Assembly (NCBI RefSeq): GCF_028735875.1
Contig: NZ_CP117834.1
Span: forward strand, 2,716,001 to 2,780,000
Origin: Shouchella hunanensis
GTDB taxonomy: Bacteria > Bacillota > Bacilli > Bacillales > Bacillaceae_D
Length of the DNA stretch: 64,000 bases
Direction of reading: 5' to 3'
Below, piece after piece: positions 16,791-20,912 of this stretch. The stretch's first letter is position 1. Every line of letters starts with the position of its first letter. Below the pieces are notes generated by a model. The model searched no databases and was not told the origin of the DNA. It was given only the letters and a program-made list of their open reading frames with translations. Both the position numbers and the translations under genes were made by a program.

Positions 16791-16824
16791 AAAAGGAGAT
16801 CGTTTTAGGCGTCTCCTTTTTCTT
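16791..16824. terminator. Bidirectional terminator between DUF779 and sortase genes
   Basis: AAAAGGAGA and TCTCCTTTT arms around a 12-base loop; it overlaps the 3' end of the convergent sortase gene. Confidence 0.8.
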
Positions 16825-17728
16825 GTGCTTGTTTGGATTCATTCCCAAAATAATCAACAGTTTTGACGGTATAGCGGGCGTTGCCTTTTTCAATTAAAAA
16901 TGATTTTCGTTCTTGTTGTGAAACACTCGCTACAAGCGTTTCTTTTCCGTTCTCACTTACTTCATACACACGATAGCCTGCAATGTAATCATCTCGAACG
17001 GCATACCACGATAATAAGTTTCCTTGAACGGTTAATTCTGTCGGTTCGTCAGGCGGATTTTCGCTATCTGTTTCTTCTACTAACGAAGTATACACTACAA
17101 GTCGTTCATCATGATTACCGCTCTGTCGATCAAATGTGCCGGTACACGTAATTAAATTTAGTTGCTTGTGATCGGTAGAACCAAAAATTTCTGTTAGTGG
17201 TGCATCGTTATAAGGATATTTTTCTATACGATCAACAGTGAATTCTAATTCTTCTCCGTTATCATCTGTGACAAAGATCGATTGATTTTCTTCTAAATCA
17301 CCTAAATAAAAAAATACTGCAGGTCCATTCTTATCATCAACATGCCCCGCCAGCACAGCATTACCACGTCCACCAGGCTTTGTTCCTGGTTCGTACCAGC
17401 CGACATCTGTTCCATTGTCAGGAACGCCCATTTGACCATTTTCTAAAAGACCTACTTCTGTAATAGGCGCTTCAACATCCAATGCAGGGATTCTTAATTT
17501 AGAAGGGAAAAGCTCGCTTTGTTTGTTTAATTCATGATAAGCCTCTTCAATCTTGTCAGCATTGATCGCGAATTCTTCTGCAATTGTTTGTTCCTGATCA
17601 AGGTGGACAGGTGGCTCTATTTCATTTTGTGTAACAGGTGAAGAAGAGGAAGATTCTTCAGCAGAGGTGCTACAACCGATAAGTGTGAGCAGGGAAAGAA
17701 AGAGTACAAGAAGTGGTCTAATTTGCAC
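16805..17728 (-). CDS. Lipoprotein sortase (class D/F-like) with FnIII-like C-terminal domain
   Basis: A 307-residue protein with a lipobox (LIGC, Cys19), a Ser/Glu-rich linker, a sortase domain (about 75-215) and a C-terminal fibronectin-III-like domain (about 225-298). The catalytic triad is visible: His129 in LAGHVDD, Cys195 in LITCTG, Arg209 in ERLVVY. Most sortases are held by a transmembrane helix; a lipid anchor and an added beta domain are unusual. The GTG start behind GGAGGATG is the only one that fits. The LPXTG-like substrate is the upstream gene in the same orientation, so this is probably its dedicated transpeptidase. Confidence 0.85.
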   Translation of the reverse strand: MQIRPLLVLFLSLLTLIGCSTSAEESSSSSPVTQNEIEPPVHLDQEQTIAEEFAINADKIEEAYHELNKQSELFPSKLRIPALDVEAPITEVGLLENGQMGVPDNGTDVGWYEPGTKPGGRGNAVLAGHVDDKNGPAVFFYLGDLEENQSIFVTDDNGEELEFTVDRIEKYPYNDAPLTEIFGSTDHKQLNLITCTGTFDRQSGNHDERLVVYTSLVEETDSENPPDEPTELTVQGNLLSWYAVRDDYIAGYRVYEVSENGKETLVASVSQQERKSFLIEKGNARYTVKTVDYFGNESKQAQEKGDA

Positions 17729-17800
17729 GACAGATCATCCTCCTTAAAAAATGTAAAAAGCGTTAACGACGATGCTTTCGCTACAGCACTAGAACAACAT

Positions 17801-17826
17801 CACTCATTGCTCTAGAGCAATGAGTG
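17801..17826. promoter_or_regulatory. Perfect 26-bp palindrome upstream of the sortase gene
   Basis: Thirteen bases CACTCATTGCTCT are followed directly by their reverse complement, with no spacer. It lies between the LPXTG gene and the sortase gene. There is no T-run after it on either strand, so an operator is as likely as an attenuating hairpin. A smaller 15-base hairpin (CTGAAG/CTTCAG) is at 17861-17875. Confidence 0.5.
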
Positions 17827-17952
17827 AGTTTACTAATAAAACAGGAAGCCTTAAATTTTGCTGAAGAGACTTCAGACACATGCTATTTACGTAAAGCGCC
17901 GTCGAACGCGTTTTTTATCCGTTCTTGAGCCAACATTTACTCATTCAAATTA

Positions 17953-19296
17953 TTAAGCATTCGTACGAAATTTACGTACTCCGAAATAACCAGTGAATGC
18001 GACTGTAGCTCCTGCTAGAATCCATGCCATCCATTGTAGAGAAATACCTTGCTGGCTTCCACCCATACCTGTTTGTGGCATTTCAGGCATTGCAGCTTCC
18101 TCTTCAAACAGATCCGGGTTTTGCTCAACAATGGCACCAGCTAAGCCTGAACCAATGTCGAATGTAAAGGCATAGCCTTCTCTGAATGTTTCAAATGATC
18201 CAGCATAGTCACCTTCTGTATAACGGTCAAAGGTTGTAAATACTTGATCTTCGTGCATGTTAACAAGTTCTGTAGCATCAGCTGCTGGTAAAATGCCTTC
18301 AGTTGCTGCGTCTAGAAATGTACCGAACTCATCAGCAAATGTACTTAGCTTGTTTTTTGCAGCCTCTTTTGCTTCATCATCTTCATTTTTTACAGCATTT
18401 ACGTATTCACTTTGAGCTAAAATGTGATTTCCTTGCCAAATTTGTTCGAATTGCTCGCCGCCTTCATCACCGTATACAGACGCAATAGTTGCTTTTAAGT
18501 CGGCTGTATTTTCATCCTCTGCCCAGCTAACGAAATCGAAATCTTCGCTATCTTTAAATTCTTTTGACATAGAAAGGGTTGCTAAGGCAAAATGTTCGGC
18601 AACAAGATTACTTAAATCAGATCGTAAGTTTCCAGCGTCTGTTAAAGGTGTTGTTCCTTCGAACATCTCTGGGTTTTGTTCAACGATGGCATTTGATAAT
18701 GCAGCACTGATATCAAACATATGTGATAGGCCTTCACGGTACGTCATGTAGGCTGTTTCATAATCGCCTTCCACGTACGCATTAAACGCATCCTCTACTT
18801 GTTGTTCATGAATGTCTAATACTTCAATAGCTGCATCACTTGGAAGTGCGCCTTCTGTTGCGCCTTCAAGAAATTCACCAAACTCTACGTAAAATTCATC
18901 AATCATTTTAGAAGCTTCTTCCTGTGCTTCTGTATCGCCATCTTTTACTGCTTGAACATAATCAGCGGTGTATTCATTATGTCCTGAGAAGATGCGGTCA
19001 AATTCTTCAGCGCCTTCATCGCCATATAATGATGCGATAGCAGGTTTCATATCCGCTGCATTTTGCATAAGTGCTTCTTGTGCGGCTTCAGCGCCATCGT
19101 CACCATCATATTGCTTTTGCATAGAAAGAACAGCAAGGGCAAAGTGTTCAGATAAAAGGTGGTCGAGTGTTCCTCTTAATTCAACTGCTGGTGTCGTTAC
19201 TTGTGACATGCTTTCTTGTGCTTGAGCTCCTTGGACAAATGATGGGGCAATTAATGATGCACCTAGTACGGGTATTAATGCTTTTTTTATTTTCAT
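17953..19296 (-). CDS. LPXTG-like cell-wall protein with two tandem His-containing repeats
   Basis: A 447-residue secreted protein. A signal peptide ends near AQA (residue 26). Two repeats of about 170 residues (40-212 and 224-396) align throughout: L-R-x-x-L-x-x-L-x-x-EHFALAxLSM, IAS-[LV]-YGDEG, a Glu-rich helix, LP-x-A-D/A, H-E-x-QV and FREG/YREGL...FDI...AIVEQNP. Three His positions are kept in both copies (51/235, 106/291, 163/348). The sorting signal is MPQTG (406-410), then a hydrophobic helix (about 419-437) and the basic tail RKFRTNA. Some relatives carry the label copper amine oxidase, which the sequence does not support. It is mostly helical and acidic; the His could bind metal or haem. 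An ECF-type promoter lies upstream. Confidence 0.85.
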   Translation of the reverse strand: MKIKKALIPVLGASLIAPSFVQGAQAQESMSQVTTPAVELRGTLDHLLSEHFALAVLSMQKQYDGDDGAEAAQEALMQNAADMKPAIASLYGDEGAEEFDRIFSGHNEYTADYVQAVKDGDTEAQEEASKMIDEFYVEFGEFLEGATEGALPSDAAIEVLDIHEQQVEDAFNAYVEGDYETAYMTYREGLSHMFDISAALSNAIVEQNPEMFEGTTPLTDAGNLRSDLSNLVAEHFALATLSMSKEFKDSEDFDFVSWAEDENTADLKATIASVYGDEGGEQFEQIWQGNHILAQSEYVNAVKNEDDEAKEAAKNKLSTFADEFGTFLDAATEGILPAADATELVNMHEDQVFTTFDRYTEGDYAGSFETFREGYAFTFDIGSGLAGAIVEQNPDLFEEEAAMPEMPQTGMGGSQQGISLQWMAWILAGATVAFTGYFGVRKFRTNA

Positions 19297-19331
19297 TTTG
19301 AAACACTCCTTTTTGTTTTGATTTCACTAAG

Positions 19332-19359
19332 CTAACGCAAGAGATGTCAAAATGGATCA
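19332..19359 (-). promoter_or_regulatory. ECF-sigma-type promoter of the LPXTG-like gene
   Basis: On the minus strand AAAAAGTGATCCA contains -35 TGATCC (19354-19359), and -10 CGTTAG lies at 19332-19337, with a spacer of exactly 16 bases. The same elements, with the same spacer, precede the neighbouring sigma gene. Confidence 0.7.
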
Positions 19360-19386
19360 CTTTTTTTAAAAAAACTTTTTTTGCAT

Positions 19387-19418
19387 AAAAAAACCTGCCA
19401 CACGTATTGAGTGGCAGG
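19387..19418 (-). terminator. Terminator after the sigma/anti-sigma operon
   Basis: CCTGCCAC and GTGGCAGG, perfect 8-bp arms with a 9-base loop, then seven T on the minus strand. It separates the anti-sigma gene from the LPXTG-like gene. Confidence 0.85.
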
Positions 19419-19424
19419 AGGCAA

Positions 19425-20198
19425 TTATAATTCTTCTACTAGCACAATGTCGCCTTCAGGTGTCTCGCTTGTTTCATCAGGTTCTATTGTAATCGCAATG
19501 GTATCGTAACCCATCTCTGGATCAATGTCGAATGTAGAGATACCGCTCCCGTCTTCGGCTGGAGTAAATGTACCAGCTCGATATGGTTCACCATCTTTTA
19601 ACAACCATACTTGGTATACTTGTGTATCCTCTGGTTGAGAGAGTTGTTCGGCTTCAACGACTAGTTGTTGATAATGATCTTTATTGACAAACGAAGCTGT
19701 AGCTTGAAATGGAATCGTCTCTGCTGCTGGTTGTAAGTTTAACCGTTGAACCAAAGAATCAACGGTTATGCTTGGTTCGATTGCTACATCATCAGGTTCA
19801 CCAAGTTGACTCACTGTATAGATATTCCCAATTAAAGAAAGGAAGAGCGCCGCAGCCATTGCTGGGATAAGCCAATTTGCTTTCTTTTTTCTTTTTTGTA
19901 TATGTTGTTCTTGTTTGTTTGTTGTAGATCCTACTGCAATTGGTTTCTTACCGTCTGAGGATTGAGATTCAACTGGCGCTTTTTCTGCAAACGCAGCTGA
20001 AAGTATCCGTTCTTTCATTTCAGGTGGAGGTTCAACTGGATCTACATCAAACCCTAAGTCATCCGTAAGCGCTCTGATTTCATTTAATTCTTCTTCGCAT
20101 GTTGAACAAGTTTTAAAGTGAGCTTCAAATTCTTTCGTTTCTGTATCAGTCAACTGTCCGTTAACGTAGTCAATTAAATGAGTACACTTATCACTCAT
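19425..20198 (-). CDS. RskA-type anti-sigma factor with zinc-binding domain
   Basis: A 257-residue membrane anti-sigma factor. The N-terminal domain has the ZAS-type zinc motif HFKTCSTC (Hx3CxxC, residue about 30) that grips the sigma factor in the cytosol. One transmembrane helix is near residues 106-128 (LIPAMAAALFLSLIGNIY). The extracytoplasmic RskA domain follows, with YQVWLLKDGEPYRAGTF near 196 and TIAITIEP near the end. Start chosen at the ATG behind GGAGGGATC; it overlaps the sigma gene's stop codon, so the two are coupled. It should hold the adjacent ECF sigma inactive until a signal outside the cell leads to release. Confidence 0.9.
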   Translation of the reverse strand: MSDKCTHLIDYVNGQLTDTETKEFEAHFKTCSTCEEELNEIRALTDDLGFDVDPVEPPPEMKERILSAAFAEKAPVESQSSDGKKPIAVGSTTNKQEQHIQKRKKKANWLIPAMAAALFLSLIGNIYTVSQLGEPDDVAIEPSITVDSLVQRLNLQPAAETIPFQATASFVNKDHYQQLVVEAEQLSQPEDTQVYQVWLLKDGEPYRAGTFTPAEDGSGISTFDIDPEMGYDTIAITIEPDETSETPEGDIVLVEEL

Positions 20199-20757
20199 GA
20201 ATGATCCCTCCATTCTGTTCTATGTCTTGGATCGTAGTTTTCAGATGTTTTAAAGCAAGCCGTAACCTTCCTTTTACTGTACCTAAGGGAAGATTACACG
20301 AATCAGCAATTTTTTGCTGTGATAAGCCTTGATAATAAAATAAGGTAATAACTTTTTGTTGTTCTGGTTTTAATTGACTGATGGCTTTTTTTACGACAGC
20401 GCGTTTTTCTTTCCATTCAACTTGATCCTCTACACTTGGATCAGGGTCTTCTGTCATTTCTTTCGTTGCGGTTTCTGAAGCGATTTCTCGCTTTTTTCGG
20501 TGATGGTCAATAACTGTATTACGTGTCATAGTGAGTAACCAGCTAGAGAATTTACCTTTTGTTTCATCATAAGAACTCTTCTGTGTCCACACTTTTATAA
20601 AGACTTCTTGAACAATTTCTTCTGCTAATTGTTTCTCTTCCGTCATTTTGAAGCTAAAAGAAAAGAGAAGTTTGCTGTACTTGTCATACATCTGTTCAAG
20701 GGCTTCTTTTTCTCCGCGCCTAAGCTTTTTATAAAGCTGTACATCATGTTCGGACAT
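20191..20757 (-). CDS. ECF-type RNA polymerase sigma factor (RskA-partnered)
   Basis: A 188-residue ECF sigma factor. Region 2 is around residues 15-85 (YDKYSKLLFSFSFKMTEEKQLAEEIVQEVFIKVWTQ; FSSWLLTMTRNTVIDHHRK) and region 4 around 125-175 (LKPEQQKVITLFYYQGLSQQKIADSCNLPLGTVKGRLRLAL). The partner anti-sigma of RskA type lies directly downstream. The start is one of two adjacent ATGs (20757 or 20760) behind AAAAGGAG. A promoter of the same type as that of the LPXTG-like gene lies about 130 bp upstream, so it should be autoregulated. Confidence 0.9.
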   Translation of the reverse strand: MSEHDVQLYKKLRRGEKEALEQMYDKYSKLLFSFSFKMTEEKQLAEEIVQEVFIKVWTQKSSYDETKGKFSSWLLTMTRNTVIDHHRKKREIASETATKEMTEDPDPSVEDQVEWKEKRAVVKKAISQLKPEQQKVITLFYYQGLSQQKIADSCNLPLGTVKGRLRLALKHLKTTIQDIEQNGGIIHE

Positions 20758-20884
20758 CATATTCTCCTTTTTTACTTGATCTCGATTTAGGAACATAAAA
20801 ATCGGAATAATAGCTCTTTGCTGATTTTACATGTATTTGTCGAGAAAAGCCAAATAAAAAGGCATGGAAAGCTTTCTTATAAAG

Positions 20885-20912
20885 AGAACGTACGAATCAA
20901 TGGTTTGGATCA
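20885..20912 (-). promoter_or_regulatory. ECF-sigma-type autoregulatory promoter of the sigma gene
   Basis: On the minus strand AAAAAGTGATCCA contains -35 TGATCC (20907-20912); -10 CGTTCT is at 20885-20890, spacer 16. It matches the element before the LPXTG-like gene. Confidence 0.7.

Follow-up and report, generated by a model that had tools for sequence, protein, structure and literature searches.

The stretch of DNA considered here (the window) is 64,000 nucleotides of the Shouchella hunanensis genome, an assembly of a single 4.06 Mb contig. At positions 16805-20912 of the window lie four minus-strand genes encoding an extracytoplasmic function (ECF) sigma factor, an RskA-type anti-sigma factor, a surface protein with a sorting signal and a sortase, just as the initial annotation had listed them. 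A shared element, TGATCC-N16-CGTT, precedes both the sigma gene and the surface-protein gene and is predicted to be the promoter read by the sigma factor. The features are given in Table 1. Here we report that the element, the sigma factor and the surface protein recur together across the order, and that the element also precedes tandem arrays of very short open reading frames (ORFs).

Table 1. Features of the sigma and surface-protein locus, in the order of transcription (window positions).
Feature	Position	Strand	Remarks
Putative ECF promoter for autoregulation, before the sigma operon (TGATCC-N16-CGTT)	20887-20912	(-)	A-tract from 20918
ECF sigma gene	20191-20757	(-)	188 aa from ATG 20757; alternative ATG at 20760
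RskA-type anti-sigma gene	19425-20198	(-)	Start codon ATG 20198, overlapping the stop of the sigma gene
Terminator-like hairpin and T-run	19387-19418	(-)	Between anti-sigma and surface genes
Putative ECF promoter before the surface-protein gene (TGATCC-N16-CGTT)	19334-19359	(-)	A-tract from 19365
Surface protein	17953-19296	(-)	447 aa; signal peptide-like start, two all-helical repeats, MPQTGMGG, hydrophobic stretch, RKFR tail
12-bp inverted repeat, weak T tail	17800-17827	(-)	Between surface and sortase genes
Class F-like sortase with lipoprotein signal (lipobox LIGC)	16805-17728	(-)	GTG start; C-terminal beta domain

The sigma protein contains sigma2 and sigma4 domains only, the domain content of an ECF sigma factor (Pfam Sigma70_r2, 1.5e-18, residues 23-90; Sigma70_r4_2, 3.1e-14, residues 122-172), and has a single cysteine in its whole length. 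The anti-sigma protein matches RskA_C (PF10099, 4.7e-17) and zf-HC2 (5.8e-5) as well as the NCBIfam anti-sigma factor model NF052375 (117 bits, cut-off 100). Its N-terminus carries the zinc-finger motif H-x3-C-x2-C, of which H25, C29 and C32 are invariant in eight sequences; the domain searches and the residue numbering used the 255-residue fragment encoded by 19425-20192, which is two residues short. A homologous sigma/anti-sigma pair was also seen at further sigma loci, including L103, L106, L116 and L121. The stem of the hairpin that follows the anti-sigma gene occupies 19418-19394 and the T-run 19393-19387 (-15.1 kcal/mol, z score -4.2). The consensus terminator scan, which allows loops of up to 8 nucleotides, did not list this hairpin, the loop of which is 9 by manual count. 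Because this terminator-like structure separates the surface gene from the anti-sigma gene, the surface gene seems to need a promoter of its own.

Both copies of the element had been reported in the initial annotation, with a spacer of exactly 16 bases and a CGTT -10 box, and both were confirmed. At each site AAAAAG precedes and A follows the element. The two occurrences in the window compare with 0.07 expected, and only 1 of 100 shuffles reached two. A scan of the whole genome gave exactly three perfect sites for AAAAAGTGATCC-N16-CGTT and none with one mismatch; at two mismatches there were three sites versus nine for the reversed control pattern. A looser scan of the genome, TGATCC-N15..17-CGTT, was dropped as noisy (36 matches versus 17 for the control), and the A-tract form alone was specific. 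All three perfect sites stand before a transcription unit. The third is outside the window, 1.38 Mb away, and lies 47 nt before five tandem ORFs of 21 residues. The earlier idea that the sigma factor controls a single protein needs revision, given this five-copy peptide array and the further target genes found in relatives.

In relatives the element was scored in a strict form (GTGATCC-N16-CGTT) and a looser form (TGATC[CT]-N15..17-CG[TA][TA]) with dinucleotide shuffles as controls. The surface genes are from 80 named loci, the best 80 of 284 relatives, three of which were dropped as having no ORF start in the expected range, to leave 77. The 44 sigma loci are those returned with DNA, a subset of the orthologues, with L363-L373 excluded as paralogues. 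The looser element was present upstream of 69 of the 77 surface genes (shuffles 0.61) and 32 of the 44 sigma orthologues (shuffles 0.28), and the strict element upstream of 51 and seven, respectively (shuffles 0.00 in both cases). A 16-base spacer separates the boxes at 65 of the surface genes and 32 of the sigma genes, and each of the other spacers from 10 to 23 was found in five or fewer. Upstream of the same genes the opposite strand gave zero to two matches. The 65 surface sites with a 16-base spacer (TGATC[CT]-N16-CG[TA][TA]) share a preceding G (94%), a C at the sixth place (94%) and a following A (95%), together with A-tract positions conserved in up to 86% and an A after the -10 box in 77%. 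Two or three successive elements spaced by about 85-90 nt are found upstream of the surface gene in L244, L249 and L304, and some peptide arrays (L126 and L431) have a similar promoter repetition.

Broader scans gave the same picture. When 41 genomes of the family were scanned with up to one mismatch, 50 sites were found in 22 genomes versus 10 for the reversed control. The element preceded the surface gene at all 16 fetched loci that have a homologue of at least 40% identity and a gene start (L091-L106), and also the G002 surface gene start (L108), which is cut by a contig end. Across an even sample of 397 genomes of the order, AAANAGTGATCC-N16-CGTT matched in 97 genomes, the reversed control in four. 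These matches fell in 90 of the 148 genomes that carry the sigma factor versus 7 of the 249 others.

The 397-genome searches scored the best eight sigma and the best four surface candidates of each genome. At E <= 1e-40 both proteins were present in 148 genomes and neither in 244, with the surface protein alone in five and the sigma factor alone in none. In a comparison of 30 genomes a clear gap divides the sigma orthologues (44-100% identity, E <= 3e-47) from the paralogues, which reach 34% identity at most (E >= 1e-20). Five members of the genus that lack a sigma orthologue (G029, G031, G034, G038 and G039) gave neither a site nor a surface protein. Together, co-occurrence in the 397 genomes and an element shared across the order give strong comparative support to the proposal that the sigma factor transcribes its own gene and that of the surface protein. 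The sigma factor and the surface protein co-occur in genomes, but the four genes are not always adjacent: at 9 of the 80 loci the sigma gene was found in the DNA fetched on either side of the surface gene (about 7 kb), and at 43 the sortase gene comes directly after the surface gene.

Several observations weigh against such a tidy regulon. The E <= 1e-40 cut-offs were chosen after the match lists had been seen; with the original search cut-offs (1e-30 for the sigma factor and 1e-10 for the surface protein) 150 genomes have both, seven only the sigma factor, 11 only the surface protein and 229 neither. Owing to these seven and 11 genomes the gap between sigma orthologues and paralogues is less clean than in the 30-genome comparison. 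Moreover, the sampled genomes are related, and a Fisher value for the co-occurrence overstates their independence. The looser element is missing at 12 of the 44 sigma genes and 8 of the 77 surface genes. The five genomes with the surface protein alone are G082, G339, G369, G373 and G383, of which G369 has a sigma candidate that just misses the cut-off (3.7e-38) and G383 has a stop within its surface gene. With all their candidates scored, G082 and G409 were confirmed to have no sigma orthologue, yet each keeps a single copy of a peptide gene (family A, below) downstream of a perfect element. These single copies (L440 and L441) probably reflect decay after loss of the sigma gene, or else the use of another ECF sigma. 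A broken homologue in G010 (L110, 24% identity) lacks the element. G033, which also lacks the sigma orthologue, contains only fragments of the surface gene, without an element, plus a peptide ORF that has degenerated although the element before it is intact; the regulon as a whole seems to have decayed there.

Such exceptions, together with the scarcity of sigma genes near surface genes, are what would be expected if a different ECF sigma of the same cell read the element and the linkage in Shouchella were incidental; G082 keeps even the surface gene. We consider this explanation very unlikely, as every one of the 148 genomes that has the sigma factor at E <= 1e-40 also has the surface protein, the element stands before the sigma orthologues themselves at the majority of loci, and site and surface protein are both absent from the five genus members named above.

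As the promoter assignment draws on sequence comparison, the element could instead be an operator for a DNA-binding regulator. This seems extremely improbable, for the element consists of two boxes held at a near-fixed distance of 16 bases, the second a CGTT -10 box, and it faces the gene. The layout is also nearly that of the promoter consensus TGATCC-N16-CGTA given for PSPTO_1043, a Pseudomonas syringae ECF sigma of the RpoE/ChrR type, in PMC5507510. The two patterns differ in the last base alone. Classical ECF promoters have an AAC -35 and a CGT -10 box according to PMC8103513. The -10 box here agrees, whereas the -35 box is GTGATCC rather than AAC. This does not exclude ECF membership, because later classifications, as summarized in the same text, define ECF sigmas by their domains only.

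The targets were tabulated from 108 distinct sites of the form AnnAGTGATC[CT]-N16-CGTT at 25 loci from the order scan plus 80 chosen from its list, with several sites before one gene counted separately. Three precede nothing recognisable. The other 105 stand before genes whose class is known or recurs: the surface gene (73), a secreted protein (10), the sigma gene (five), a sortase (four, one a fragment), peptide family A (four), a MurE-like ligase (four), a CHRD protein (two), a PepSY-like protein (two) and peptide family B (one). The labels MurE-like, PepSY-like and secreted come from reading sequence strings and not from a family search. One of the CHRD proteins (PF07452, 8.5e-25) ends in MPQTGMGG like the surface protein and the other has a different C-terminal end. 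The secreted proteins form a family of about 330-415 residues with the typical end DQWLNAPP[AS]QPP, found behind the element in L223, L236, L261, L262, L275 and L287; the one member tested had no convincing NCBIfam match. The MurE-like ligase gene lies behind a conserved AATAGTGATCCG-type site in L243, L246, L248 and L305, a possible link between the regulon and the wall.

The array behind the third Shouchella site comprises five tandem ORFs (family A), and a separate ribosome-binding site precedes each of them. The sequence is MFTDIL[VI]QAFESVSSIIGTLG in the first four and MLTDVLTQLFESVSSIVGTLG in the fifth. A protein search found family A in eight of the 397 genomes, with all eight arrays behind the element; six of these genomes have the sigma factor, and the two that lack it (G082 and G409) are those with a single copy. 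Family B consists of peptides of 29-30 residues with the start M(x)D.TQ... and was found in 5 of 288 sampled genomes, all five of them sigma-positive. Its arrays are behind the element in all five, in G209 in a looser form with a spacer of 17 and CGTA. Families A and B were the only tandem small-ORF families found behind the element among the loci covered by a search for such families. Lysine and arginine are absent from all 43 family A copies (11 loci) and occur in three of the 54 family B copies (seven loci), the net charge calculated for seven variants ranges from -2 to -6, and an array can hold up to 11 similar copies.

The ratio of nonsynonymous to synonymous differences (pN/pS) was 0.22 for family A and 0.34 for family B between genomes, and 0.11 and 0.20, respectively, within arrays, counted without correction for multiple hits and with only three pairs behind the between-genome value of family B. 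One of those three pairs has 15 nonsynonymous versus three synonymous differences and goes the other way. These ratios support the view that the peptide ORFs are real coding genes. Modelled as a helix, family A is amphipathic (hydrophobic moment 0.41-0.55), and for four variants this was matched by at most 1 of 2000 shuffles. Neither Pfam nor NCBIfam, searches in which sequences this short can be missed, gave a match above cut-off for the peptides, and PHROGs gave none; the peptides also had no Protein Data Bank (PDB) sequence match, no plasmid match and no match in open-access literature text.

Family B arrays are followed on the same strand by two genes for half-ATP-binding cassette (ABC) exporters at all six loci that have a downstream flank (G209, G244, G267, G074, G005 and G035, of which G267 and G074 are of the same genus). 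The last peptide copy and the ABC pair are 70-177 nt apart, and relative to the G244 pair the first gene has 44-63% and the second 50-63% identity. In G074 (L433) the first ABC gene is split in two frames, a recent inactivation or an assembly error, and in G004 the array runs to the contig end. G209 gathers the parts in a single locus in the order element, surface gene, sortase, element, eleven peptides, ABC, ABC. In G267, G074, G005, G035 and G004 a small homologue of the sortase C-terminus lies upstream of the array behind its own element; it has an N-terminal hydrophobic stretch and matches fn3 at 8.8e-5, below the cut-off. No ABC pair of this kind was found near the family A arrays fetched.

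Small, leaderless and multicopy ORFs, in family B adjoining two exporter genes, would suit a secreted leaderless antimicrobial of the bacteriocin type, exported by an ABC pair that would also protect the producer, as opposed to a structural or surfactant peptide. Leaderless bacteriocins are mostly cationic, whereas the peptides here are acidic and nearly devoid of lysine and arginine. Moreover, the copies within an array resemble one another and match no Pfam, NCBIfam or PHROGs family above cut-off. An antimicrobial role deserves to be taken seriously but we think it unlikely. Alternatively, the arrays could act inside the cell, for example as membrane toxins like those of type I toxin-antitoxin systems or as feedback regulators of anti-sigma cleavage, a reading favored by the lack of a signal peptide and of an exporter pair near family A. 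We regard this as distinctly unlikely, given that family A, if helical, is amphipathic and not a plain hydrophobic span, that family B is linked to an exporter at six of six loci, and that four array loci examined contained no Rfam family. Phenol-soluble modulins are small leaderless amphipathic peptides, often encoded in tandem and exported by the Pmt ABC exporter. The peptides here resemble them in size, in lacking a leader, in amphipathicity and in tandem arrangement, and family B has a linked ABC exporter. They differ in being acidic and nearly free of lysine and arginine, in lying behind an ECF-type promoter and in having up to 11 similar copies.

The surface protein has the features of a sortase substrate: an MPQTG motif, a hydrophobic stretch and a basic RKFR tail. 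A DNA pattern for MPxTGxGG matched once in the genome, in the surface gene. The AlphaFold2 model contains helices only (predicted local distance difference test score, pLDDT, 82; predicted template-modelling score, pTM, 0.79). A Foldseek search of the PDB with this model gave no match at E <= 0.001, and the best VIA-align Z score was 7.3, which for helical models may mean only a common arrangement, as the tool cautions. The protein had no convincing match in Pfam, NCBIfam or PHROGs. Its Shouchella miscanthi AK13 counterpart is 100% identical in the best segment, and in L093 (G037) the surface gene is split in two ORFs, a recent inactivation or an assembly error. The motif [ML]PxTGxGG is present in 52 of the 80 surface homologues. 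The other 28 are mostly Paenibacillus proteins with a different C-terminus (e.g., L187, 6995-8623), which in one tested homologue is a Cu_amine_oxidN1 domain (PF07833, 9.4e-28). Because most of these motif-less Paenibacillus homologues still stand behind the element, regulation appears to be more conserved than the mode of anchoring.

The sortase matches Pfam Sortase (PF04203, 1.6e-25), and H129, C195 and R209 are invariant in 10 of 10 sequences. The NCBIfam class_F_sortase model is by far its best class at 144.1 bits, a score below the cut-off of 166. In a PDB fold search with the sortase model (pLDDT 72, pTM 0.51) the top matches shown were sortases (E 1.5e-8). Six strands follow residue 229, and this C-terminal beta domain is probably Fn3-like, because a free-standing homologue of the domain matches fn3 at 23.1 bits, just below the cut-off of 25. 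The initial annotation had proposed a lipid-anchored sortase. A lipobox is indeed present in the source genome, but this is not general in relatives, as only 6 of 43 neighboring sortases have one (counted with a simple pattern over residues 1-45 of the longest ORF). The system resembles class F sortases and LPXTG anchoring in its sortase fold, invariant His, Cys and Arg residues and an adjoining substrate gene with a sorting signal. It differs in the MPxTGxGG motif, the lipobox of this species, the extra C-terminal beta domain and the score below the class F cut-off. The inverted repeat between the surface and sortase genes (-19.5 kcal/mol, z score -6.8) is possibly a partial terminator or an mRNA stabiliser, and may set the ratio of surface protein to sortase.

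Taken together, these data argue for an autoregulated ECF/RskA regulon, widespread in bacilli, that would switch on cell-surface remodelling and, in some lineages, exported peptides; we give this reading a probability of about 0.83. The promoter, its targets, the cognate sigma factor, the coding peptides and the linkage of family B to an exporter are well supported by comparison among genomes, and we infer sensing by the RskA-type protein, regulated release of the sigma factor from it, anchoring by the adjoining sortase and the extracellular role of the peptides. The anti-sigma factor would keep the sigma factor at the membrane until an envelope signal frees it. The sigma factor and RNA polymerase would then read promoters of the form A-rich (AAAA) GTGATCC-N16-CGTT. 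Transcription of its own operon would give positive feedback, and transcription of the helical-repeat surface protein would supply a substrate for the adjoining sortase to fix to the wall via MPxTGxGG. In Shouchella the sigma factor would also transcribe the tandem array of 21-residue acidic amphipathic peptides, and in other genomes the 30-residue family B peptides would be exported by the linked ABC pair. Outside the cell the peptides may be abundant and provide a coat, a surfactant or part of a matrix. A tentative extension, which we find attractive but rather less than probable, is that the switch directs a surface assembly. The sortase-anchored helical protein would be a scaffold on which abundant acidic peptides form a coat or matrix, with a dedicated ABC transporter of two subunits exporting at least family B. 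The Fn3-like domain would serve for docking, whether as part of the sortase or as a separate membrane-anchored protein encoded next to the arrays.

The closest named system in terms of regulators is SigK/RskA of Mycobacterium and relatives (ECF18/ECF19), which likewise pairs an ECF sigma with an anti-sigma that has the RskA C-terminal domain. The -35 box of SigK differs from the element described here. According to PMC7509140, MPT70 and MPT83, which are antigenic proteins, are among the products under SigK/RskA control, and two conserved SigK cysteines are found in 94% of ECF18 and 56% of ECF19. In contrast, the sigma factor here holds one cysteine and its targets are a sortase substrate and peptide arrays. 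The H-x3-C-x2-C motif of the anti-sigma also contrasts with SigK/RskA as described in PMC7406223. The anti-sigma likewise departs from the RpoE/ChrR type in having RskA_C, with only a weak N-terminal match to the ChrR model (E 0.027, 14.3 bits versus a cut-off of 124.5), and both the targets and the phylum are other. As the promoter is RpoE/ChrR-like but the anti-sigma is RskA-type, we have filed the regulon under neither system. No description of it was found in the open-access literature, subscription journals being mostly outside the search.

The two peptide families match nothing in the libraries searched. Both families are very short and poor in lysine and arginine and hence would be easily missed by gene callers and by trypsin-based proteomics, and both sit behind a promoter of the surface-stress type, one of them beside an exporter. 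For the regulon, present in about 148 of the 397 sampled genomes of the order, there is a well-defined promoter pattern, a probable cognate sigma factor and a list of targets, and its Shouchella version, with three sites, could be tested in full.

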